A stretch of DNA of 46,621 nt from a virus: positions 1 to 46,621 of IMG/VR virus record IMGVR_UViG_3300044713_000028; one strand, written 5' to 3'. Made by a program: the position numbers and the translations under genes. Position 1 is the first letter of the stretch; each line of letters opens with the position of its first letter. Below the pieces are notes generated by a model. The model saw only the letters and a list, made by a program, of their open reading frames with translations. It was not told the origin of the DNA and did not search any database. Below are positions 2,501 to 41,540 of this stretch, piece after piece.

Positions 2501-3043
2501 TTGGAAGCTCTACCTCAGAACGACGAAATATTGGAGCGATTATCGGCTGGCGAGTCCCTGCGCTCGATATGCCGCACCCCAGGAATGCCGACCGAACAAT
2601 CCGTCAGACGCCGCGTTATTGACGACGCAGACTTTGCGACGCAATACGCGCGCGCTAGATCGATAGGGCTGGATTCATTAGCGGAACAGATTCAGGATCT
2701 TGCAGACATTTGCAGGCCTGGAGACAAGGTGGAAAGAAAGCAGGTTGGGTGGGCCTGCAAAACCTGCGGTCGAGACTCCCATTATTCGCGCAAAGAATTT
2801 GTGCACAGCTTCGACAGCTCACCACTTTGCCACGAAGGAACACCAGAGCGGGTGTACGAGGAAAAGACCGTCACCGGGGACATGGTAGAGAGAGCTAGGC
2901 TGCAAATTGATGCGCGAAAGTGGTTGCTCAGCAAACTGAAGCCTGGCACGTATGGCGATGTAGTGCGTCAAGAAATCAGCGGGCCGGCTGGCGAACCGCT
3001 TAAGGTCACCGTCGAGTACGAAGACAAGCCGGCGAAATCGTGA
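2501..3043 (+). CDS. terS: Terminase small subunit
   Basis: 180 aa. The N-terminus (EILERLSAGESLRSICR, residues 9-25) is the helix-turn-helix of a common phage small terminase, and the C-terminal ARLQIDARKWLLSKL (132-146) is also characteristic. The protein recognises viral DNA and loads it onto the large subunit. The TTG at 2501 is chosen because the conserved helix-turn-helix begins just after it; the first in-frame ATG (2585) would remove it. There is no Shine-Dalgarno. Residues 86-111 hold CxxC...CH (C86, C89, C110, H111), a zinc-finger-like insert not typical of the family as I know it. Overlaps terL by 4 nt. Confidence 0.8.
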   Translation: MEALPQNDEILERLSAGESLRSICRTPGMPTEQSVRRRVIDDADFATQYARARSIGLDSLAEQIQDLADICRPGDKVERKQVGWACKTCGRDSHYSRKEFVHSFDSSPLCHEGTPERVYEEKTVTGDMVERARLQIDARKWLLSKLKPGTYGDVVRQEISGPAGEPLKVTVEYEDKPAKS

Positions 3044-4317
3044 ACACCGTTCGCATCAAACTCCCCCGCCCGCACGCCAAACAATCTGAAGTCATCGCCA
3101 GCGCCAAGCGTTTCAACGTGCTGGACTGTGGGCGTCGATGGGGGAAAACAGAGCTCGGCATGGACCGAGCGGTGCATCCGGCGTTGCACGGCAAGCCGGT
3201 AGGCTGGTTCGCGCCGTCGTATAAGTACCTCACACCGGTATGGTCTGAGCTTCGCGCGCGGCTCGCGCCAGTCACCGCCCGCAAGAGCGAGCAGGAACAC
3301 AAGCTAGAGCTCATGGGCGGCGGATCTCTCGAAATGTGGTCGATGGACACGCCAGGCGCCGGCCGTAGCCGTGCTTACGCGCGTGTGATCGTGGACGAGG
3401 CGGCGATGGTGTCTGACCTGCGCGATGCTTGGGAACAGGCGATCCGTCCGACGCTGACGGATTACCGAGGCGATGCGTGGTTCCTGAGTACGCCGAAAGG
3501 CATCGCGCATTATTTCCATGAAATCTACCAGCGCGGCGCAGATCCGGCCAGCGACGAGTGGGCGGCTTGGCAGATGCCGAGTTCCAGCAATCCATTCCTG
3601 CACGCCAGCGAGATCGAGAGCGCGCGCGGCGACATGACGGACCTGGCCTTCGCCCAGGAATATCTGGCACAGTTCGTTTCGTGGGAGGGCAGCGTTTTTC
3701 GTTGCATTGACCAGGCCGTCTACGAACCGCCAGACCCGCCGCGCGGCGCTTGGCTGATCGGTGTGGACTGGGGCCGAACCCACGACTTCACGGTGTTCGT
3801 TGCGTTAGACCCGCATGGGAACGTGCTGGCCGTCGATCGGTTCCGCGGCGTGGAGTATTCCGTGCAGCGCGACCGCCTGATAGCTTTCTGGCATCGCGTT
3901 TCAGCCGGCCGGGCGATTATCGTCGCCGAGGTGAACAGCATGGGAGGTCCCAACGTTGAGGCGCTGATGCACGATGGGCTACCGGTGCGCGCGTTCCAGA
4001 CAACCGGCGCAAGCAAGTCCCATATCATTGAGTTGCTAGCGCTGGCTTTCGAGCAGCGCCGCGTCCACATCCCGAATGATCCGGTGATGATTGGCGAGCT
4101 GCAGGCGTTCGAGGGCCGCACGTTGCCGTCCGGCGCAACGCAGTACGGCGCGCCGAAGGGCGAGAACAACCACGACGATACGGTCATGGCGTTGGCGATT
4201 GCCTGGAGCGGCTATGATGCCGCGCAGGATAACCGACCATCGCGCGTGTGGGCTGATCCGAACACCGGGTACTATACCGACGATGACCCTGGGCCAGTGG
4301 AAATTTCCCCGTACTGA
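3040..4317 (+). CDS. terL: Terminase large subunit
   Basis: 425 aa, GTG start overlapping the terS stop. ATPase domain: Walker A GRRWGKTE at 31-38, Walker B VIVDE at 116-120, coupling motif WFLSTPKG at 147-154. Nuclease domain: GVDWG at 241-245 gives the first catalytic Asp (D243), AEVN near 296-299, and HDDTVMALA at 378-386 the last acidic pair. This is the packaging motor that cuts concatemers and pumps DNA into the prohead. Length is normal and all key residues are present. Confidence 0.95.
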   Translation: MNTVRIKLPRPHAKQSEVIASAKRFNVLDCGRRWGKTELGMDRAVHPALHGKPVGWFAPSYKYLTPVWSELRARLAPVTARKSEQEHKLELMGGGSLEMWSMDTPGAGRSRAYARVIVDEAAMVSDLRDAWEQAIRPTLTDYRGDAWFLSTPKGIAHYFHEIYQRGADPASDEWAAWQMPSSSNPFLHASEIESARGDMTDLAFAQEYLAQFVSWEGSVFRCIDQAVYEPPDPPRGAWLIGVDWGRTHDFTVFVALDPHGNVLAVDRFRGVEYSVQRDRLIAFWHRVSAGRAIIVAEVNSMGGPNVEALMHDGLPVRAFQTTGASKSHIIELLALAFEQRRVHIPNDPVMIGELQAFEGRTLPSGATQYGAPKGENNHDDTVMALAIAWSGYDAAQDNRPSRVWADPNTGYYTDDDPGPVEISPY

Positions 4318-4326
4318 AAATAATCC

Positions 4327-4355
4327 TTGCATTCCGCGCCGACTCGTGATTTAAT
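4327..4355 (+). promoter_or_regulatory. Sigma70-like promoter of the glycosyltransferase cassette
   Basis: TTGCAT (4327-4332), 17-nt spacer, TTTAAT (4350-4355). The next start codon (4365) is 9 nt downstream, so the leader is at most a few nucleotides. A palindrome covers the -10 box. Confidence 0.65.
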
Positions 4356-4359
4356 CACG
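4345..4359 (+). promoter_or_regulatory. Palindromic operator over the -10 box
   Basis: CGTGATT-T-AATCACG is a perfect 7-bp inverted repeat about one central base, enclosing the TTTAAT -10 hexamer and ending 5 nt before the start of a ribbon-helix-helix gene. That family usually binds inverted repeats at its own promoter, so autoregulation is inferred. Confidence 0.6.
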
Positions 4360-4364
4360 GAAGC

Positions 4365-4535
4365 ATGGCGAGATCAGAAAATCCAGAAGGGCGCGCGGCT
4401 TATGTGACGATTTCCATGCCAGCGCCACTACTGGATGAGGCAAAGCAAAAAGCGGCCGAAGAGTTCATCACGATCAGCCGGTGGATATCTTCGATTGTCC
4501 GCATGTACCTTGCAAAACAGAAAAGGACGAAATGA
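4365..4535 (+). CDS. Ribbon-helix-helix (Arc/CopG-type) regulator, 56 aa
   Basis: ATG at 4365, TGA at 4533 overlapping the next ATG. Residues 13-18 (YVTISM) form the DNA-contacting beta strand, then two helices (about 20-33 and 37-52) joined by a short turn at residues 34-37, the Arc/CopG/MetJ layout. It likely works as a dimer of dimers. It is the first gene after a promoter whose -10 box sits inside a perfect palindrome, so it probably represses itself and the following genes. No Shine-Dalgarno is visible. Confidence 0.7.
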   Translation: MARSENPEGRAAYVTISMPAPLLDEAKQKAAEEFITISRWISSIVRMYLAKQKRTK

Positions 4536-4810
4536 CGATTACGGAGCACAAATTTCCGAGCGGCGCGCAAGAGTTCCCGCTCGAACTGCCGGTTGGTTGC
4601 CAATTGCTACAGCCGCGAGCGCACGGCCCGCAGCCGGTGTTGCCGGTGTTGGGCGATCCGAAGGCACCCAAGCAGACGCGCACTTTCCTGATGTTCGGGC
4701 AGCTCAACGCGGCGAACGTGCCGAACGGCCTGGATTACGTCGGCAGCTTTGACCGCGCCGGATTCCCGTACCATGTGTTTGAGCGTAAGGCGGCCAAGGC
4801 CAGCGCATGA
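4532..4810 (+). CDS. DUF7352-like protein
   Basis: 92 aa, ATG at 4532 coupled to the regulator. The pattern HKFP...FPLELPVGCQLLQ...TFLMFG...YVGSFDRAGFPYHVFE follows a small beta-rich phage family I know as DUF7352, function unknown. Start chosen by the ATGA overlap; an earlier in-frame start at 4481 lies inside the regulator. Confidence 0.65.
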   Translation: MTITEHKFPSGAQEFPLELPVGCQLLQPRAHGPQPVLPVLGDPKAPKQTRTFLMFGQLNAANVPNGLDYVGSFDRAGFPYHVFERKAAKASA

Positions 4811-4953
4811 CGCCGACCGGAGATGCTCTCGTGGATGCCTTGATGCAGTGCGAACAGGACAGCACCGCGCAGCAGTTGGCGAAAGAGCGGGAAGCGATTG
4901 CGAAGATGCTGGAAGACCTAGCGGACAAGATTCGCGCGAGGGGTAAGCGGTGA
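4807..4953 (+). CDS. Small helical protein (48 aa)
   Basis: ATG at 4807 overlaps the previous TGA; the TGA at 4951 overlaps the GTG start of the glycosyltransferase. Charged heptad-like helix from about residue 20 to 45, probably a short coiled coil. No family recognised. Confidence 0.5.
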   Translation: MTPTGDALVDALMQCEQDSTAQQLAKEREAIAKMLEDLADKIRARGKR

Positions 4954-5711
4954 GTTTGCCGACAGTGGCTTGTATGATGCTCGTGAGCGGGCGCCAAGAG
5001 ATGGCCGAGCGCGTGCTACGTTCGTTCGCTTCGCAAACCCATCCAGTTGAAAGTCGCATGCTTGTTATATACGACACTGGCGATGTGCCGATCATGTTCG
5101 CGCGCTGCGCGCCTGGCGCGGATAATGTTGTGTGTCACCTCTGGGCGAAAGACAAGCAGGGTCAGCCCATCGGCACGCTGCGCAACTTGGCTAACGAATG
5201 GGCAGCCAGCGGTGCGGTCGGCACCTTCGGAAAGCCAGATATTCTGTGCCATTGGGATAGCGATGACTGGAGCCACCCGAGGCGCATCGAGGAACAGGTC
5301 AATTCCCTGCTGATATCCACACCCCGATCTGAAGCTACCGGCTACAACGAAATGCTGTTCTGGGACAGCACCTCAGCGCAATCGCACGGCGCGTGGATCT
5401 ACACCGGCTCGCGCAACTACATGATCGGCACGTCGCTGATGTACTGGCGCGAGACGTGGGAGCGCACGAAGTTTCCGGCGAAGATGACCGGCGAAGATAC
5501 GGACTGGGGAAAACTGGTGCGCGGGAGGGCGGAAACGGCAATGCGGTGGCTGACCGAAGAACCGCGCATGGTCGCCGCCATCCACGGCGGAAACACGACG
5601 TGCCGCGTGGTCTGGAATCTTAACAAGCGCACGGGCAAACTTACTTCGCACCGCATGTGGAAGCGCGTGCCGGAGTGGGATTCGTACTGCGCGAGGGTAA
5701 TGCAGTTATGA
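4950..5711 (+). CDS. Glycosyltransferase, GT-A fold (family 2-like) no. 1
   Basis: 253 aa, GTG start coupled to the upstream gene. An N-terminal Rossmann-type strand-helix pattern (SLPTVACMMLVSGR) leads to the nucleotide-sugar/metal motif DSDD at 103-106, in the context HWDSDDWSHP. A second segment near residues 160-200 (SLMYWRETWERTKF...GEDTDW) resembles the acceptor region and catalytic acidic pair of GT2 enzymes. Likely transfers a sugar in the cytoplasm to a virion or host-envelope acceptor; the acceptor is unknown. First of four transferases between terminase and portal. Confidence 0.75.
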   Translation: MSLPTVACMMLVSGRQEMAERVLRSFASQTHPVESRMLVIYDTGDVPIMFARCAPGADNVVCHLWAKDKQGQPIGTLRNLANEWAASGAVGTFGKPDILCHWDSDDWSHPRRIEEQVNSLLISTPRSEATGYNEMLFWDSTSAQSHGAWIYTGSRNYMIGTSLMYWRETWERTKFPAKMTGEDTDWGKLVRGRAETAMRWLTEEPRMVAAIHGGNTTCRVVWNLNKRTGKLTSHRMWKRVPEWDSYCARVMQL

Positions 5712-7488: not shown

Positions 7489-7694
7489 CTACACTGTGGA
7501 TCGTCGGCCAGAACAAGAGAGAAACAAAAAGCGGCATCGTGTGGGAGCTTCAAGGCGTATTCGATGATAAAAATAAAGCTGAGGCGGCGTGTCGGAACGA
7601 GAGCTACTTCATCGGCCCTGCTAACTTGAATGAAATTCTTAGTGACCAAACTGAGATGTGGCCAGGTTGTTACTACCCACGTTTATCGAAATGA
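7485..7694 (+). CDS. Hypothetical protein (69 aa)
   Basis: ATGA-coupled on both sides. Pattern LWIVGQN...WELQGVFDDKNKAEAAC...FIGPANLNE resembles small phage proteins of about this size that precede other accessory genes. Function unknown. Confidence 0.6.
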   Translation: MTTLWIVGQNKRETKSGIVWELQGVFDDKNKAEAACRNESYFIGPANLNEILSDQTEMWPGCYYPRLSK

Positions 7695-8299
7695 CAGATT
7701 ACACGCAGTATGGCGAGCAAGCGGCAATCTTGGAGGCTTGTGACGTTGTTCCGGGGCTGGAGCAGAAGCGCGTCGGCCGATTCCTGGATATAGGCGGCTA
7801 CGATCCGCGAGACAAGAGCAACACGCGCGCGCTGTTCGAGTGCGGATGGACCGGGGTGATAATCGAACCCGAGCCGCACGCCATGCTGCGCCTGATTGCT
7901 GAGTACGGCAACGAGGCGCGTATCACGCTGGTGCAGGCCGCAGTGGGCGCTGAGTCATCTTGCGCGTCCAAGTTCTGGGTGACGGCGGACGGCACGGCGA
8001 CCGACGTTGAGGCGTTCCACGACAAATGGAAAGAGCAGGTCAAGTACGACGGCTGCATTCTCGTGCCGCATATAACTATGGCGCAGATCATGCTGCAATT
8101 CGGCGGCTTCAACATGGTGAGCATCGATGTGGAGGGCATGAGCGCTGATATCGCCATTCAGTTGTTTCAGTCGCAAATGCTGCCGCGCTGTGTGGTTGTG
8201 GAGCACGATGACCGACTGGTGGAGATCGGACAGGCAGCTATGCCGCGCGGGTATTCGGTTACGCTGCTGAACGGCACGAACGCAGTATTTCGGAGGTAG
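7691..8299 (+). CDS. FkbM-family methyltransferase
   Basis: 202 aa, ATG at 7691 coupled to the previous gene. SAM-binding motif I FLDIGGYDP at 31-39, the acidic end of strand 2 at IIEPEP (57-62), and the family hallmark IDVEGM at 145-150. FkbM enzymes O-methylate sugars or small molecules; among glycosyltransferases it most likely caps a glycan. Somewhat short but all core motifs are present. Confidence 0.8.
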   Translation: MTDYTQYGEQAAILEACDVVPGLEQKRVGRFLDIGGYDPRDKSNTRALFECGWTGVIIEPEPHAMLRLIAEYGNEARITLVQAAVGAESSCASKFWVTADGTATDVEAFHDKWKEQVKYDGCILVPHITMAQIMLQFGGFNMVSIDVEGMSADIAIQLFQSQMLPRCVVVEHDDRLVEIGQAAMPRGYSVTLLNGTNAVFRR

Positions 8300-8302
8300 C
8301 CT

Positions 8303-8515
8303 ATGCCCAGAGACGAATATAGCGTATTAGAGGAGCATTGCAAGCAAGTTAAGATTGCGGGGCAATATTTGGTTTACGGAGACCCTGAACAATTGCTGGC
8401 TATGATTGCAGAGATCCGTCGTCTAAGAGAAATTTTGGATAACGTGCGGAGCGTTGAACGGATTCATGCAGAAGAGGAGTATAAATTAAGCTTAAAATCA
8501 TGTGGCATCTTATAA
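8303..8515 (+). CDS. Hypothetical helical protein (70 aa)
   Basis: ATG 3 nt after the methyltransferase stop. A charged helix (EIRRLREILDNVR) dominates, and its 3' end overlaps the next gene by 16 nt. Base composition is more A/T-rich than the neighbours. Confidence 0.5.
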   Translation: MPRDEYSVLEEHCKQVKIAGQYLVYGDPEQLLAMIAEIRRLREILDNVRSVERIHAEEEYKLSLKSCGIL

Positions 8516-9336
8516 CATTTTCCGGCCGCCCGTACGAGTGGCAGACCGAGCAGATTGTCCACCGCGCGCCGGGATATGGCGCGGGCAAGGTTCATGTGTA
8601 CGATGACGTGTGGCTCCGCGAGACAGGCTTCTTCCGGCAGAATCAGTGGCTCTGGGAGCACCACGGCGACCGGCAGAACCACAAGCGCGGTTTCGGCTGG
8701 TTCGCCTGGAAGCCGTTCGTCATCCTGGATGCGCTGGAACGCGCGGAAGATGGCGACGTGGTGCTGTTCCTCGATGCCGACTGCTATCCGATTCACGACC
8801 TGGGCGCGCTGTACAGCGAGTGCGAACGCAACGGCGGCGTGATGCTGTTCAACGTGGTGGGTGCCGAGCGGTTCAACTATATGTGGTGCAAGCGGGATTG
8901 TTTTCTGGTAATGGGGCAGGATGATCCCAAATACTGGTATGCGCCTGCGGGTGTCGCGCGTTTTATGCTATTCCAGCGCGGTCCGTGGAAAGCCAAGCAA
9001 TTCCTGATGGAGTGGCTGACATATTGCGTTAATCCGTTGGCGACCACGTTTGATGAAAACAAGCTGGGACACCCGGATATTCCTGCCGCGCCGGGTGATC
9101 AGCGGAGGTTCGCATTCGCCGAGCACCGCACCGAGCAGGCGATTATGACCAATCTGGCGCACAAGTACGGGTTCAAGCTATACCGTGAGTGCTGCCAGTT
9201 CGGGAACCAGGTAGACCCGGCGCTGTACGATGCGGTGTTGGACGGATACCCGCAAATGTTCATCCAGGACGGACGCCGAGTGACGGACGACGGCACAGGC
9301 AGCAAGTTTAGGAACGTGCCACAGAGGACGGAATGA
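8500..9336 (+). CDS. Glycosyltransferase-like protein, GT-A fold, no. 3
   Basis: 278 aa. The segment GFGWFAWKPFVILDALE (64-80) followed by DGDVVLFLDADCYPI (84-98) is typical of GT-A enzymes with the metal-binding DAD at 92-94. The C-terminal half has EQAIMTNLAHKYG, a second conserved stretch. The fold matches small polysaccharide-type transferases. ATG at 8500 lies inside the preceding frame. Confidence 0.7.
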   Translation: MWHLITFSGRPYEWQTEQIVHRAPGYGAGKVHVYDDVWLRETGFFRQNQWLWEHHGDRQNHKRGFGWFAWKPFVILDALERAEDGDVVLFLDADCYPIHDLGALYSECERNGGVMLFNVVGAERFNYMWCKRDCFLVMGQDDPKYWYAPAGVARFMLFQRGPWKAKQFLMEWLTYCVNPLATTFDENKLGHPDIPAAPGDQRRFAFAEHRTEQAIMTNLAHKYGFKLYRECCQFGNQVDPALYDAVLDGYPQMFIQDGRRVTDDGTGSKFRNVPQRTE

Positions 9337-9503: not shown

Positions 9504-9709
9504 TGAAGCTACGTTGGTGGAAAACGGCGGATGAATGGCGCACGGAGATCGTGCGGCGCGCGTACAATCACGCCACGGAGATCAAGGTGCTTCAGGATCG
9601 CATCGCTGGGCTGGAGGCGAGTCTGGCGATAGCCAAGGACGATCTGCGTCGGGCCAACCAGCAGCGCGAAGAGTGGCGGCGCAAGGCGCTGGGAGTGGGC
9701 CAGCGATGA
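9503..9709 (+). CDS. Small coiled-coil protein (68 aa)
   Basis: ATG at 9503. Residues about 20-60 form one long charged helix with heptad spacing (LQDRIAGLEASLAIAKDDLR). It may oligomerise or bind a partner. ATGA-coupled to the next transferase. Confidence 0.5.
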   Translation: MKLRWWKTADEWRTEIVRRAYNHATEIKVLQDRIAGLEASLAIAKDDLRRANQQREEWRRKALGVGQR

Positions 9710-10557
9710 AACTGATCGGACTGATGCCGGCGCGTTCAGAGGGCTGGATTATTGGCCTGTCTGCGCGCGTGGCGCTGATGTGGTGCGATTCGCTCATCCT
9801 GCTCGACCATGCCAGCACCGACGCAACTTTGCTGAGGATGGCAGACATAGCACTCCAGCACCCCGGCCGAGTCACGATCCTTAAGGAGTACGGCAAGTGG
9901 GACGAGATGGCGCACCGGCAGCGCATGCTGGAAACTGCGCGCGACTTCGATCATCAAGCAACTCACATTGCCATGATCGACGCCGACGAGGTGTTGACCG
10001 CCGACTCGATGCCGATAATCCGCAAGGATATCGAGATGCTGCAGCCGGGTGTCATGCTCTATGCCAGCATGTTCAACATGCGCGGTACGCACCTGACTTA
10101 CCACACTAACGGCGTTTGGGGTAACCGGCAACTGTCCATAGCGTTCAAGGATACGCCGGCCGCGCACTGGCAGGGCGACACCTTCCACCACCGCGAGCCG
10201 CATGGAGTTTACTGGCGGCACATCCAATCACCGGCCAAGGTGATGCACCTCTGGGGTGTGACCGAGCGGCGCCTGATCGCACGGCACGCGCTTTACAAAG
10301 TCACCGAAGCGCAGCGCTGGCCTAACAAGCCGCGCGCGTCGATTGACGCGCAGTACAATCTGGCCATCAAGCCGCGCGCCACCGACCCGGAATGGACCTT
10401 TGCTACCGCTCCGGATAAGTGGTGGTGCGCGTATTCTCGGCTGACCCGGCACATGGATCTGGATCGCGTTCCCTGGCAGGAAGCGGAAGTGAGGCGCATG
10501 CTGGCCGCTGATCCATCGCTTGCTGATGGGCTTGACCTGTTCGGAGTGGAGAAATGA
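9706..10557 (+). CDS. Glycosyltransferase family 2-like protein no. 4
   Basis: 283 aa from the coupled ATG at 9706. Starts LIGLMPARSEGWIIGLS, then LILLDHASTDAT (31-41), the usual second GT2 strand, and the metal/nucleotide motif DADE at 92-95 (MIDADEVLTAD). This N-terminal layout is that of GT2 enzymes that read LDHxSxDxT. Ends with a helical C-terminus. It is the last transferase before the portal region. Confidence 0.75.
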   Translation: MKLIGLMPARSEGWIIGLSARVALMWCDSLILLDHASTDATLLRMADIALQHPGRVTILKEYGKWDEMAHRQRMLETARDFDHQATHIAMIDADEVLTADSMPIIRKDIEMLQPGVMLYASMFNMRGTHLTYHTNGVWGNRQLSIAFKDTPAAHWQGDTFHHREPHGVYWRHIQSPAKVMHLWGVTERRLIARHALYKVTEAQRWPNKPRASIDAQYNLAIKPRATDPEWTFATAPDKWWCAYSRLTRHMDLDRVPWQEAEVRRMLAADPSLADGLDLFGVEK

Positions 10558-10763: not shown

Positions 10764-11008
10764 AGTCTACCGGGGCCAGTCTTGTAAAGTTCGCGTACTA
10801 CGACGGAGCCAAAGAGGAAATAGTGGAATTCTGCGTATCTTCTGAATATCTGTGGAGCGCGGAGGGTTTGGCGCAACTGTATGAGGCCTGCAGAGATAGC
10901 TACCTAGGAGCAGACGTGGATATGCGGGCGTCGTGGCACCTCGCGGGAGTGGCAAACTTTGATGGCTTTGTGATAGAAGCCGACGAGGTGATAGACTCTA
11001 AGCCATGA
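10760..11008 (+). CDS. Hypothetical acidic protein (82 aa)
   Basis: GTG at 10760 overlaps the upstream TGA. Acidic, with no recognised motif. Its stop overlaps the portal ATG. Confidence 0.5.
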   Translation: MKSTGASLVKFAYYDGAKEEIVEFCVSSEYLWSAEGLAQLYEACRDSYLGADVDMRASWHLAGVANFDGFVIEADEVIDSKP

Positions 11009-12945
11009 ACCGCATTCGCGCGTGGCTCTCAAAACGGCTTGGCATTGATGATCTTCAGCGATCCGCCCAGCAGCAATTCCTAGATTTACAGCGCCGCAAT
11101 GAAATTCTGCAAGATGAAAACCGCGCGCTACTCCTGCGTGACCGCGAAGACGAAGGCAGGCAGCGGGCAATGGAAGAGCGCGCGGAATACGCCGAGGCGC
11201 TGTCAATGTACGGCGCTGGCCCTTGGCAGCCTACCGGCGTGGCAGTGAACGAGGCCGGAAAGATCGAGGGCGGCGGGGTTGCACTGAAGGAGAGGTACTG
11301 GGAACTTGAATTGGCGCTTGAAGATCGCGGCTGGCAGCGTCAACTGGCGATGGCTCAAACCGAGTTCAGCCGCTATGGAATCCAACAGATTATCCTGATT
11401 TCCCGACTGTATTTCATCAAAAACCCGCTGGTTCGCCGCGGCGTGGAGTTGTGCGCTGATTACGTGTTTGGCCGCGGAATGCAGATCACTTCTGACGACG
11501 AAGACGCAAATACCTGCATTGAACAGTTCATGGAGGCGAATCAAAAACAGTTGGGCGTCACCGCGCTTCTGCAAAAGGAGCGCACTTTGAAAACAGACGG
11601 GAACCTATTCTGGGCACTGTTCACGGATCAAGCTACAGGCATGGTGATGGTGCAGACCATCGACGCCGCCGAGGTCGAGGACGTTATCACCGACCCAGAC
11701 AACTCCGATGTGGAGTGGTTCGTCAAGCGGCGCTGGATTCAGGCTGTGTTTGATCCTGAAACGGGAGCCACGCAGCAAATCTCCAAGGTGTGCTGGTACG
11801 TGGCGCTGGGATATGAGACGAACGCGACGGCATTCGGCCCGCAGCAGGAGCCGGTTATGCGCGTGGCTGGTGAGCCGGTGTACGTGTACCACCGCAAGGT
11901 GGGCGGCATCGAAAAGTGGCGCTTTGGCTGCCCTGAAGTCTACCCGATGATCGATTGGGTGCGCGCCTACAAGCACTACCTTGAGGACTGGTGCACGATC
12001 CAGCGGGCATTCGCGCGCTTCTCGTGGGATGTGAAGACCAAAGGGGGCGCCGGCGCGATAGCGAACCTCAAGAATGCGCTGGCGACTACTCTGGCAAACG
12101 GCGGTACGTGGTGGGAACAGAACCCGGCACCAAATACCGGTTCTCCGTGGATTAGCGGCCCGGGAACGACGCTGCAGCCGTTCAAGACACCGCAGAACAA
12201 CCCGGAGGCTTCCCGGCGCGTGGCAATGATGGCGTGTTCGGCAATCGGGCTACCCGAAACGATGCTCTTGGGCGATGCCACCACGGGCAGTCTGGCGACC
12301 GCGGTATCACTCGACCGGCCCACGGAATTGAAATTCACACAGCGGCAGGAACTCTGGCGGCAGGATCTAAAGGTGATCGTGGGATATGCGCTTGAACGTT
12401 CGCTGATGGCTCCTAAGGGCAAACTGCGAGAAGCGCTAAAAGCAAAGGGGAAATCGCCCGACACAAAGACTGCGGCGGATGGTGCGCAGGCCGTGCGCGT
12501 TACCTTCCCTGCCGTCCTGGAGCACGATGTGACCGCGCGCGTGGCGGCCATCGCGGAAGCGCTAACCCTCAACGGATTCGAGGCTACCGGCATTGACCAG
12601 CGCGTCGGTATCAAGCTGCTGTTGGAAGAACTCGGTGTGGACGATGCACAGAGCGTCATCGAGGCCATGTTCCCCGAAGATCAGTACGATGAACTGGTGG
12701 ACCGTACACCGCTGTTGAAGGCCGAGAATGAGCAGGCCATCGAACAGGCCAAGAATCCGCCGCAGCCGGGCATGGAAGGACCGACCGGCGCACCGTCGCA
12801 AGGGCCAATGCCCCGCAAGCCGCACGCGCAGAAGCTAAACGCGCAGCCGCCCAGCCCGTCGAAGGCCAGCGAGGCGGCGATAAACCGGGCGGTCGTGGCG
12901 CTAAAGAAAGCGCTGGAATCGCGGAGGGTTAATGGGCACGCCTGA
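11005..12945 (+). CDS. Portal protein
   Basis: 646 aa, ATG coupled. N-terminal charged helices (about 10-70), then the portal core: FSRYGIQQIILISRLYFIKNP, a GRGMQI motif, and a clip/stem region around YKHYLEDWCTIQRAFARFSW. The C-terminal ~50 residues are Pro/Gln/Lys-rich. Forms the dodecameric ring at the capsid vertex through which DNA passes. Position upstream of the head morphogenesis gene agrees. Confidence 0.85.
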   Translation: MNRIRAWLSKRLGIDDLQRSAQQQFLDLQRRNEILQDENRALLLRDREDEGRQRAMEERAEYAEALSMYGAGPWQPTGVAVNEAGKIEGGGVALKERYWELELALEDRGWQRQLAMAQTEFSRYGIQQIILISRLYFIKNPLVRRGVELCADYVFGRGMQITSDDEDANTCIEQFMEANQKQLGVTALLQKERTLKTDGNLFWALFTDQATGMVMVQTIDAAEVEDVITDPDNSDVEWFVKRRWIQAVFDPETGATQQISKVCWYVALGYETNATAFGPQQEPVMRVAGEPVYVYHRKVGGIEKWRFGCPEVYPMIDWVRAYKHYLEDWCTIQRAFARFSWDVKTKGGAGAIANLKNALATTLANGGTWWEQNPAPNTGSPWISGPGTTLQPFKTPQNNPEASRRVAMMACSAIGLPETMLLGDATTGSLATAVSLDRPTELKFTQRQELWRQDLKVIVGYALERSLMAPKGKLREALKAKGKSPDTKTAADGAQAVRVTFPAVLEHDVTARVAAIAEALTLNGFEATGIDQRVGIKLLLEELGVDDAQSVIEAMFPEDQYDELVDRTPLLKAENEQAIEQAKNPPQPGMEGPTGAPSQGPMPRKPHAQKLNAQPPSPSKASEAAINRAVVALKKALESRRVNGHA

Positions 12946-13411
12946 GGCTGCCAATCATGAGAAGTTTTTGGCGCACCTGTCCGCGAGCGGGGACGCATGC
13001 TGGCTTGTTTCTAAGTGGCTTCAATCTCGCGGCTACCCGGTACGGGTAAATCCAACGTTCTACTCGCCTGAACCAAAGGCGTGGAAAGAATACGCGGACG
13101 GTGGAGATATCGAGATAGGGCTACGCATCGAGGTAAAGGGACTGTCCGCGGCATTCACTTCTGATACGGATTGGCCCTTCCCCAATTTCATCGTGTGCGC
13201 AAAGCATTCATTTGATCGATCACGTCCAAGGCCATATGCATACATCGCGGTTAACGAGGCGCGGACCCATATCGCAATGGTCAAAAGCGCATCTCGTCCG
13301 AAGTGGACGGTAGAGAGGAAGTCGGACGGCCGCTATCAGGGGGTGCAGCAAGAGTTTTATGTGACCACGCTTAATAACGTATCGTTCCACGCACTCAGGG
13401 AAATAATGTGA
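12932..13411 (+). CDS. Possible PD-(D/E)XK-type nuclease (159 aa)
   Basis: GDIEIGLRIEVKG at 58-70 places Asp59, Glu67 and Lys69 in the order and spacing of a PD-(D/E)XK active site. Otherwise unrecognised. It overlaps the 3' end of the portal gene by 14 nt and the next gene by 4 nt. Inserted between portal and minor head protein, where free-standing nucleases often sit. Confidence 0.5.
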   Translation: MGTPEAANHEKFLAHLSASGDACWLVSKWLQSRGYPVRVNPTFYSPEPKAWKEYADGGDIEIGLRIEVKGLSAAFTSDTDWPFPNFIVCAKHSFDRSRPRPYAYIAVNEARTHIAMVKSASRPKWTVERKSDGRYQGVQQEFYVTTLNNVSFHALREIM

Positions 13412-14661
13412 AGATCTACCTCGTGCGCCACGCTGAATCCGAAGACGGCCCGCGCGAAGATCCAACCCGCGCGCTAACCGAAACCGGACACGCGCAGGCC
13501 AAGGTAATCGCCGGATTCCTGCACCGCGAATTGGGACGCGCCAACGTGGTGCTGTGTTCATACTTCAAGCGTGCGGTGGATACGGCCAAGCCGATCGCTG
13601 AAGCGCTGGGCGCGCCCATCGTGAACCTGTGGCAATTGCACCCCGATGGCGATCCCACAGAATCGCTGGACGCGATCAAACGACACGGCCAAGGGGATAC
13701 AGTGGTCGTCACGCACCACCCGCTGACGAACGCGCTTATCGAGCGGCTGACCGGCGCAAAGACGGATGACGTGTCATTCCACCACGGGCACGTAGCGCAC
13801 TGCCACGGCGGCAAGTTGCATTGGCTCGTCAGTCCGCACCTGGTGGAACGCGATGAAGCCGTGACCGAGGCGGCAATCGCCGTGGCCGATTCGCTGTTGG
13901 AGGCGATGCCGACTCCAGCGCATGACCGGCGCAACGCCGCGCTGGAAAAGCCGATCGCCAACGCTGAGCGTGCGGTGCGCAAGCACTTCAAACGGCAAGA
14001 GCGGGCGTTTATGCCAATGAAGCCTCCAGTAGCCGGATTCCGAGAGGCAGATGCCGACGCCGAAGGTATCGAGGCGTCCCTTCGCGCTACGTTGGCGTCC
14101 CTCCCTGTAGATGAGCTAATCGCTGATCTGTTTGATGACGCTCTATCCGCCGCGCTGACAGCAGCCGCCACGCACACCGCGTCCGACTTCGCCTACTCCG
14201 ATGACGGCGCCTACGCCAGTTTCGAGGCGCGCTACCTGGCAAACCAGGGCTTTGCCAAGATTGCCGGCGGCATCGACAATACCACCATCCGGCAGGTAGC
14301 TCTGTCCGTAGCGAGGGCCTATCAGGACGGCGCCGACTATCAGGGAATCGTGGCGGCCATCAAGCACAGGTTCGCCGACTTCAACGATTACCGGGTGAAC
14401 CTGATCGCGCAGACCGAACTGAACAATGCCTACAACGCCGGGATCGTTGAACTCGGCATGCAGGCAGGCGCGGATGAGAAGTCTTGGCACACGCAATCGG
14501 ATAAGCCGTGCCCGTCGTGTGTGGCGAATGAAGCCGCGGGGCGCATCCCGATCAGAGCGGCATTCCCCAGCGGCGCGCAATCTCCATGCGGGCACCCAGG
14601 CTGCTATTGTAGTCTGGAAGTACACGCCAGCGGGCGCGATGTGGAGGAGGATGCAGCATGA
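13408..14661 (+). CDS. SixA-like histidine phosphatase fused to phage head morphogenesis protein
   Basis: 417 aa, GTG start. Residues 1-145 match the SixA phosphohistidine phosphatase layout: LVRHAE at 5-10 (Arg7, His8), LTETG at 23-27, SYFKRAVDTA at 51-60 (Arg55), VVVTHHPL at 99-106 (second His) and a closing strand LHWLVSP. After a linker (about 160-220) residues 220-417 resemble Mu gpF/SPP1 gp7 minor head proteins: NLIAQTELNNAYNAG at 331-345 and a Cys cluster CPSC (368-371) and CGHPGCYC (394-401). The reading frame is continuous, so this is a real fusion. The phosphatase substrate is unknown. All catalytic residues are present. Confidence 0.8.
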   Translation: MKIYLVRHAESEDGPREDPTRALTETGHAQAKVIAGFLHRELGRANVVLCSYFKRAVDTAKPIAEALGAPIVNLWQLHPDGDPTESLDAIKRHGQGDTVVVTHHPLTNALIERLTGAKTDDVSFHHGHVAHCHGGKLHWLVSPHLVERDEAVTEAAIAVADSLLEAMPTPAHDRRNAALEKPIANAERAVRKHFKRQERAFMPMKPPVAGFREADADAEGIEASLRATLASLPVDELIADLFDDALSAALTAAATHTASDFAYSDDGAYASFEARYLANQGFAKIAGGIDNTTIRQVALSVARAYQDGADYQGIVAAIKHRFADFNDYRVNLIAQTELNNAYNAGIVELGMQAGADEKSWHTQSDKPCPSCVANEAAGRIPIRAAFPSGAQSPCGHPGCYCSLEVHASGRDVEEDAA

Positions 14662-31020: not shown

Positions 31021-31050
31021 TTGACTATCAATCACTACGCGCAGTACAAT
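31021..31050 (+). promoter_or_regulatory. Sigma70-like promoter, leaderless start
   Basis: TTGACT (31021-31026), 18-nt spacer, TACAAT (31045-31050). The HNH ATG is at 31057, 6 nt downstream, with no Shine-Dalgarno. Confidence 0.75.
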
Positions 31051-38312: not shown

Positions 38313-38342
38313 TTGACAAATGGTACGAACATCACAGATAAT
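38313..38342 (+). promoter_or_regulatory. Sigma70-like promoter, near-leaderless start
   Basis: TTGACA (38313-38318, consensus), 18-nt spacer, GATAAT (38337-38342). The ATG of the zinc-finger gene is 10 nt downstream. Confidence 0.65.
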
Positions 38343-41006: not shown

Positions 41007-41299
41007 GCGCATCTAAACGGAAGTACGTTATCGTAAGAACCTATTCGGCGGGGTGTTTCGCCGGATTCCTGGAAAGCAGGAAGGGTAAGGAGGTGGTGCT
41101 AAAAGGCGCGCGCCGATTGTGGTATTGGGCGGGGGCGGCTTCGCTTTCGCAGCTTGCCCAGTCAGGCACCAGCAAGCCTGCGGAGTGCAAGTTTCCAGAG
41201 CCGGTTTCGAGGATCACGCTAACTGAGGCCATTGAGATTCTGGACGCGACCGGAGTAGCGCAAAAATCCATCCAAGGTGTAGCGGTATGGCGCGCGTAG
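41003..41299 (+). CDS. DUF6948-like protein (98 aa)
   Basis: ATGA-coupled. YVIVRTYSAGCFAGFLESRKGKEV, ARRLWYWAGAASLSQLA and IEILDATGVAQKSIQGVAVWRA match a small phage family I know as DUF6948, often followed by Gly-rich repeats. Function unknown. Confidence 0.75.
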   Translation: MSASKRKYVIVRTYSAGCFAGFLESRKGKEVVLKGARRLWYWAGAASLSQLAQSGTSKPAECKFPEPVSRITLTEAIEILDATGVAQKSIQGVAVWRA

Positions 41300-41436
41300 G
41301 CTACGGCGACGGCTCCGGCTCCGGCGACGGCTCCGGCTACGGCTCCGGCTCCGGCTCCGGCTACGGCTCCGGCTACGGCTCCGGCTCCGGCTCCGGCTCC
41401 GGCTACGGCTCCAGCTACGGCTACGGGAAGGGATAA
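41287..41436 (+). CDS. Gly-Ser/Gly-Tyr repeat peptide (49 aa)
   Basis: ATG 41287 overlaps the end of the previous gene. After MARV almost every residue is Gly, Ser, Tyr or Asp in GS, GY and GD dipeptides (about 20 units). Low-complexity, likely flexible or phase-separating. Similar tails are common next to or on DUF6948-like proteins. Confidence 0.6.
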   Translation: MARVGYGDGSGSGDGSGYGSGSGSGYGSGYGSGSGSGSGYGSSYGYGKG

Positions 41437-41438
41437 CA

Positions 41439-41540
41439 ATGAAACCAAAATCTAAACGCAGGAAGTGCCCGACATGCGGCCGGAAAGTGCCAGGCCGTGC
41501 CAAGGGCACAAAGAACCCAAAAAAGGAGGCGGCGGCATGA
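41439..41540 (+). CDS. Small basic zinc-ribbon peptide (33 aa)
   Basis: ATG 2 nt after the repeat stop. KCPTCGRKVPGRAKG with a lysine-rich tail; half a zinc ribbon. ATGA-coupled to the next gene. Confidence 0.45.
   Translation: MKPKSKRRKCPTCGRKVPGRAKGTKNPKKEAAA

Follow-up and report, generated by a model that had tools for sequence, protein, structure and literature searches.

The window, i.e., the whole stretch of 46,621 nt that was analyzed here, belongs to a soil phage in which the DNA-packaging gene is directly followed by what looks like a strong promoter and by a very small gene, probably that of a repressor, at the head of a series of sugar-modification genes. The features of this locus, and of the region up to the portal, are the following:

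3040-4317, + strand: terminase large subunit gene (terL), PHROG terminase large subunit at E 5e-38, C-terminal tail EISPY and stop
4327-4332, + strand: -35-like hexamer TTGCAT, from the sequence and its matrix score
4345-4359, no strand: perfect palindrome CGTGATTTAATCACG, candidate operator, from the sequence and shuffles, binding predicted
4350-4355, + strand: -10-like hexamer TTTAAT, within the palindrome, with the ATG 9 nt on
4365-4535, + strand: gene of a 56-aa ribbon-helix-helix (RHH) protein, ATG start without a good Shine-Dalgarno (SD) site, probably leaderless or nearly so
4532-4810, + strand: DUF7352-like protein, 4-bp overlap with the RHH gene, Pfam PF24043 at E 7e-6
4807-4953, + strand: 48-aa ORF, overlaps of 4 bp at either side
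4950-5711, + strand: GT2-type glycosyltransferase, from its family profile against the PDB
7658-8299, + strand: FkbM-type methyltransferase of the cassette, Pfam PF05050 at E 1.5e-8
8500-9336, + strand: possible glycosyltransferase, Glycos_transf_2 at E 0.14, below the cut-off
9703-10557, + strand: GT2-like protein, Glyco_tranf_2_4 at E 3e-4, below the cut-off
11005-12945, + strand: portal, 4-bp overlap with the preceding ORF, PHROG portal at E 3e-68

The gap between terL and the 56-aa ORF is 47 bp long. The PF24043 match of the DUF7352-like gene reaches 26.6 bits against a cut-off of 27, and the family profile of the glycosyltransferase at 4950-5711 matches heparosan synthase B (1.2e-9) and SpsA (7e-6) in the PDB, Glycos_transf_2 being detected in six of the eight members of this family and not in the window's own copy. 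The ORF at 8500-9336 is 58% identical to a gene of one of the relatives (L006). Farther along, at 13408-14661, the window codes for a MuF-like protein in which an N-terminal histidine phosphatase (His_Phos_1, E 3.4e-13) is joined to a match with Phage_Mu_F just below the cut-off (E 3e-5). Several of these phages also have low-complexity tracts whose translations are (GV)n, (SRSR)n or (YGDG)n (the 41041-41448 region of the window; L012, 6-353; L122, 4628-4983; L180, 4704-5277).

The assignment of the 56-aa ORF to the RHH proteins, which had been made in the original prediction, is supported by an AF2 model based on an alignment of the window protein with proteins of the related loci. This model, which has a mean pLDDT of 82 and helices at residues 20-32 and 37-55, matches CopG, Arc, PutA, ParD-type and other RHH proteins almost exclusively. 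The best PDB rows in Foldseek are the CopG-family protein 9kkd, CopG 1ea4 and Arc 1myl/1par, with probabilities of 0.98-1.00 and E values of only 0.05-0.1 because the chain is short, and the VIA-align comparison places PutA, AtaR, TacA, CopG and Arc at Z 6-6.7. No strand is called by DSSP in the monomer model, which is expected, given that the strand pairs only in the dimer, and it is through these paired strands that an RHH dimer would bind DNA.

As a single member, the window RHH has weak sequence evidence, given that the PHROG matches are Arc-like at E 0.0051 and 0.008, and that no Pfam family is found at E ≤0.05, the best sub-threshold match being CopG_antitoxin (E 0.11). The profile of the group, on the other hand, matches SvtR (2kel, 1.7e-4), AvtR, a CopG-family protein and omega (2bnw, 0.0021; 1irq, 0.0031) in the PDB. 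As the profile of all members mostly recovers its own seeds, the leave-one-out profile is the fair test, and it ranks the window RHH first of 483 ORFs (E 0.31), with the RHH as the top ORF of its own locus in 10 of the 11 cases; in L026 it comes third (E 0.66), which makes the RHH status of that locus uncertain. Direct searches for homologues of the 56-aa protein gave 35 pattern matches and no relatives in viral contigs, none in phages, and none with phmmer against the PDB, and relatives were thus sought via TerL and via the glycosyltransferase.

The position of an RHH gene at the head of a glycosyltransferase cassette is borne out by synteny in these relatives, which backs the idea better than the palindrome does. 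Among 17 distinct loci with TerLs 55-71% identical, the window included, an RHH gene follows terL in 10 (the window, L002, L106, L136, L026, L027, L113, L115, L119 and L109), usually no more than about 220 nt away, with a distance of 456 nt in L109, and in the other seven the gene after terL is no recognised RHH. These 17 loci were obtained after near-identical contigs had been merged by hand (L106 with L004, L107 and L090; L109 with L110 and L108; L027 with L114; L115 with L116; L117 with L147), and after L118, whose contig ends 28 nt past terL, and L149 and L150, in which TerL is cut, had been dropped. In the more distant relatives the profile, which was built on the seeds, found no RHH within 900 nt, L177 excepted.

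The loci derived from the glycosyltransferase have the same gene order next to unrelated TerLs, with an RHH in L013 (the same as L177) and L016, and with a small GTG-started cysteine-rich protein of no Pfam family in its place in L012, whose TerL is also unrelated. A scan based on the RHHs led back to terL neighbors, in L259 and L263, which have other TerL types. In L003 and L006 the glycosyltransferase comes directly after the RHH, and a DUF7352-like gene is next after the RHH in L002 and L013 as well.

A separate observation concerns the end of terL itself (4303-4317 in the window), given that I-S-P followed by Y, I, F or V, or a close variant of it, forms the C-terminus in at least three TerL types that are unrelated to one another, and that this tail tracks the portal family of the window (11005-12945), not the TerL lineage. 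In counts that include some near-duplicates, the window-type portal is found in 20 of 26 tail-bearing records (14/17 plus 6/9), the six misses being mostly short contigs, and in none of 24 tail-less records (0/1 plus 0/23). The I-S-P tail may be a portal-docking peptide.

The promoter-like site in front of the RHH gene, TTGCAT-17 bp-TTTAAT, scores 12.1 bits and is the top site in the 260 nt past terL, with a sigma70 matrix of E. coli. When 260-nt pieces are drawn at random from the window, 3.5% of them have a site as good as this, and the whole window has seven sites of at least 12 bits on the + strand and five on the - strand. A scan for consensus promoters does not list it because the second position of the -10 box is T, not A. 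By matrix score, no promoter-like site of the window is stronger than that at 2453-2481 on the - strand (TTGACA-17-TACAAT, 16.1 bits), which points leftward into the replication genes, opposite to their direction.

When ORFs are disregarded, the sigma70-like site with the highest score within 260 nt past terL directly precedes the RHH in all 11 RHH loci scanned (those named above, with L177 and L016 added and without L109, whose RHH begins beyond the 260 nt), although the individual sites are not strong (p_genome of 0.02 to 0.11). The promoter-like sites before the RHHs of L260 (the contig of L109), L262 and L263 were chosen by eye and stand outside these counts. The same layout is also found with a first gene that is no RHH, in L021 (DUF6948), L122 (no family) and L129 (HTH_17, E 2e-11).

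The -10 box is separated from the RHH start codon by 6-10 nt in nine of the 11 loci (9, 9, 7, 7, 10, 7, 6, 7 and 7, i.e., by 7 nt in five), by 15 nt in L136, and in L002 by 8 nt (GTG) or 23 nt (ATG). For comparison, an ATG or GTG that opens 40 codons is found 6-10 nt on from 13 of the 65 promoter-like sites of at least 11.5 bits in 16 records, and three of these 13 are RHHs. The energy of the anti-SD duplex is -3.5 at the RHH start of the window, compared with -5.3, -6.8 and -8.1 at the next three genes. In PMC3160421, a leaderless bacterial gene is defined by the lack of an SD and by a TANNNT box located about 12 bp upstream of the start codon, and in the window the first T of TTTAAT is 15 bp from the ATG, with the weak SD already given. 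The window RHH gene is probably leaderless, or nearly so.

The same paper gives an average of 13.3% leaderless genes in Acidobacteria (3/3 genomes; PMC3160421), a share that would fit this start and is not evidence for an acidobacterial host. The best cellular TerL match is an Armatimonadetes MAG (40%), the nearest hint to the host from a cultured phage is Tunturi_4, a phage of an acidobacterium, and no tRNA genes were found. Two more strong sigma70-like sites of the window (31021-31050 and 38313-38342) have a start codon 6 or 10 nt on, and the site at 31021-31050 opens an HNH_3 endonuclease gene (E 1.1e-17), so that other inserted genes also look leaderless.

The 15-bp palindrome CGTGATT-T-AATCACG was described correctly in the original prediction, given that it is perfect and has the -10 box inside it. 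It ends 5 bp before the 56-aa ORF. No further copies, which had also been raised there, are found in the window at up to three mismatches, where 1.86 would be expected by chance. The window has six perfect palindromes (arms of at least 7, centre of 0-1 nt), compared with 7.2 on average over 20 shuffles, and the existence of the palindrome is therefore unremarkable and weak evidence alone. Its position within the gap is mildly unusual (p about 0.01-0.03): shuffles of the 47-bp gap reach the palindrome in 139 of 5000 cases with loops up to 8, and in 50 of 5000 with a centre up to 1, and the dyad in the promoter segment of the window has a p of 0.011.

The conservation of the palindrome was considered and rejected, as it is carried by none of the relatives. 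Among the RHH promoters, three of 11 have dyads at p < 0.05 (the window, L016 at 0.032 and L177 at 0.044), and the dyads of L177 and L016 sit over or beside the -10 box. The other 10 RHH promoters present no dyad enrichment (Fisher p 0.42; eight of 10 without a dyad at p < 0.05), and in a larger pool of 24 loci, with an RHH or not, minus the window, the dyad p is 0.013, mainly from L122, L016, L018, L177 and L012. That the palindrome is the operator is a fair guess for the window phage and no rule of the group, and autoregulation through 4345-4359 is plausible. If transcription starts just before the ATG, as predicted, the palindrome would be upstream of the start and would thus act as DNA only, not as an RNA hairpin.

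One possible alternative, to be taken seriously even if it is the less probable one, is that the RHH controls its own promoter through some other nearby element, such as imperfect or direct repeats, and that the palindrome is coincidental. The comparison with the shuffles points in this direction, as does the lack of clear perfect dyads in the promoters of L002, L106, L136, L026, L027, L113, L115 and L119, whereas the position over the -10 box and the dyads that L177 and L016 likewise have at the -10 argue for the palindrome.

Two other repeats were observed at related loci. In L122 (4246-4274), a perfect palindrome of 23 bp, TAATCCATCCG-T-CGGATGGATTA, with 11-bp arms (p 0.001), occupies the space between the -35 and -10 boxes of the promoter and extends over them. 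This promoter is followed, after 7 nt, by the ATG of a 115-aa protein that belongs to no known family. In L012 (4534-4583), two copies of the 18-bp stretch GTCCGCGTTGCGGATACT are found around the promoter of the small cysteine-rich ORF, and this repeated stretch is a possible tandem operator.

The RHH differs from the genes around it in its divergence. The window is 70% identical to L003 in TerL, 52% in the glycosyltransferase, 76% in the portal and 64% in the MuF-like protein, and the corresponding values for L006 are 67%, 47%, 50% and 51%. The window RHH reaches scores of only 18-40 and an alignment identity of 11-22% with the other RHHs, i.e., these are nearly unalignable with it, while the flanking genes keep about 42-76% identity. 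The repressor would either diverge very fast or be replaced. That the arrangement is retained in related phages despite this divergence would fit a self-limiting switch. L031 and L259 have a segment of 581 bp with 91% DNA identity, which starts 9 bp ahead of the terL stop and includes the promoter and the RHH gene, whereas the two TerLs upstream of it are not related to each other (best BLASTP E 0.006, over 26 residues).

That the cassette is an insertion follows from L130 and L131, which have no cassette and in which the portal adjoins terL at a distance of 9 nt. As read from the sequence, the left end of the cassette is the terL stop. A moron sits between two genes that adjoin each other in related phages, and it has its own promoter and terminator. 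The cassette is found between such genes and has, on its sequence, a promoter of its own in the site past terL, and no terminator of its own was found. A terminator scan detected none between the cassette and the portal, and only weak + strand sites within the cassette (8946 and 9432), and the 4-bp gene overlaps run into the portal and beyond. The combination of overlapping genes and no terminator is the reason why the cassette is called only moron-like here. The original prediction had also placed some 6 kb of genes, ending at the portal, under the one repressor, and the portal as a boundary of this control is unsupported. Of the earlier interpretation, the RHH and its place at the head of the cassette are supported. 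At the right end of the cassette, its last genes and the portal overlap by 4 bp. At its left, nothing separates terL from the cassette, and read-through from upstream is therefore equally possible.

It is considered probable, with moderate confidence, that a leaderless, self-repressing RHH gene heads a moron-like glycosyltransferase cassette inserted between terL and the portal. What the analysis shows is the gene, its modelled fold, the promoter-like site, the synteny, the insertion and the exchange as a unit; the leaderless start, the binding, the autorepression and the timing are predicted. In this mechanism, the host RNA polymerase would read the sigma70 promoter of the cassette, over the end of terL, on DNA entry or early in the infection, and the first cistron of the leaderless or near-leaderless mRNA would produce the RHH repressor, whose dimers would bind dyad DNA that overlaps the promoter. 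In the window, the most likely target is the palindrome that covers the -10 box. The bound RHH would exclude the RNA polymerase and thereby cap the expression of its own gene and of the downstream genes for sugar modification, so that their proteins (DUF7352-like, GT2-type, FkbM methyltransferase and others) would be made in a limited burst, followed by self-limitation. Little read-through into the portal and head genes would come from a promoter damped in this way, and the cassette could still be transcribed later from upstream of terL, because no terminator separates the two.

Other roles of the RHH protein were also weighed. It is unlikely that the RHH acts elsewhere, on host genes or other phage promoters, with its own promoter constitutive; self-binding is a prediction here, which leaves room for such a role, but the window has no second copy of the palindrome within three mismatches, and the promoter and the RHH move as one DNA unit between L031 and L259. 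It is still more improbable that the RHH is the antitoxin of a type II toxin-antitoxin pair with the overlapping DUF7352-like gene. The 4-bp overlap, the sub-threshold CopG_antitoxin match and the DUF7352-like genes behind the RHHs of L002 and L013 would suit such a pair, but the partner is not consistent, as no DUF7352-like gene is detected in L003 and L006, and in the AF2 model almost no C-terminal extension is left past helix 2 of the 56-aa protein. A chance ORF at 4365-4535, to which the weak sequence scores of the window's own protein might point, is very improbable in view of its position and size, its RHH-like model, its overlap with the next gene and the recurrence of RHHs at the same place in the relatives.

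The self-repressing RHH at the head of the cassette can be extended to the whole group in a speculative form, which is rather unlikely. The site between terL and the portal would dock exchangeable, fast-diverging pairs of repressor and operator, with RHH, helix-turn-helix (L129) or other small proteins first, each with a leaderless promoter of its own, and related phages would carry mutually blind switches, similar to immunity types, for the modification of host or virion sugars.

If the self-repression is true, the phage would keep control in spite of a host-type promoter midway along its late (structural) operon, given that the inserted cassette would supply its own brake as the first, leaderless gene. 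A single conserved site occupied by divergent repressor/operator pairs would also offer a natural set for the study of changes in RHH DNA specificity, and the exact joint at the terL stop makes the exchange of modules between phages with unrelated terminases testable.

Among known systems, CopG (plasmid pLS1) and Arc (phage P22) are similar to the window RHH in size and in their beta-alpha-alpha fold (CopG 1ea4 with 25% identity and a Foldseek probability of 0.99-1.00; Arc matches 1par/1myk). In both CopG and Arc, the operator overlaps the promoter of the regulated transcript. They differ in gene context, given that the window RHH heads a cassette after terL, with DNA binding that is predicted, and to our knowledge their operator sequences are unrelated to the window palindrome. 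The omega repressor (2bnw, 1irq) is matched by the RHH group profile. Its heptad, WATCACW, resembles the half-site AATCAC of the window, where the half-sites diverge and are 1 nt apart, and this likeness is only a lead.

The cI repressor of lambda and the cI and cro of PY54 are immunity repressors of the helix-turn-helix type. According to PMC4488713, lambda cI and PY54 cI and cro have leaderless mRNAs that start at or near the AUG from a strong promoter. These repressors sit in the immunity region, whereas the window RHH, for which a leaderless start is predicted, is found between terL and the portal. Like the window cassette, the morons of lambdoid phages interrupt pairs of genes that are neighbors in relatives, and they have their own promoter; unlike them, the window insert has no terminator that was found, extends over several kb and is headed by a probable repressor.

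In the Tunturiibacter phage Tunturi_4 (PP885687), a glycosyltransferase is located between terL and the portal, as in the window, and a promoter-like TAGACA-17-TATAAT with a dyad that fills the spacer lies just past terL; it differs in that no RHH gene was found in its terL-portal gap, and its TerL is only about 36% identical. An RHH gene between terminase and portal is not named in the literature surveyed, from which subscription papers were excluded, and this is no proof of novelty. The parts are of known kinds, i.e., RHH autorepressors, leaderless phage repressors and morons, and what is new, as far as the searches show, is the combination of these known parts at a fixed site with hyper-divergent repressors.
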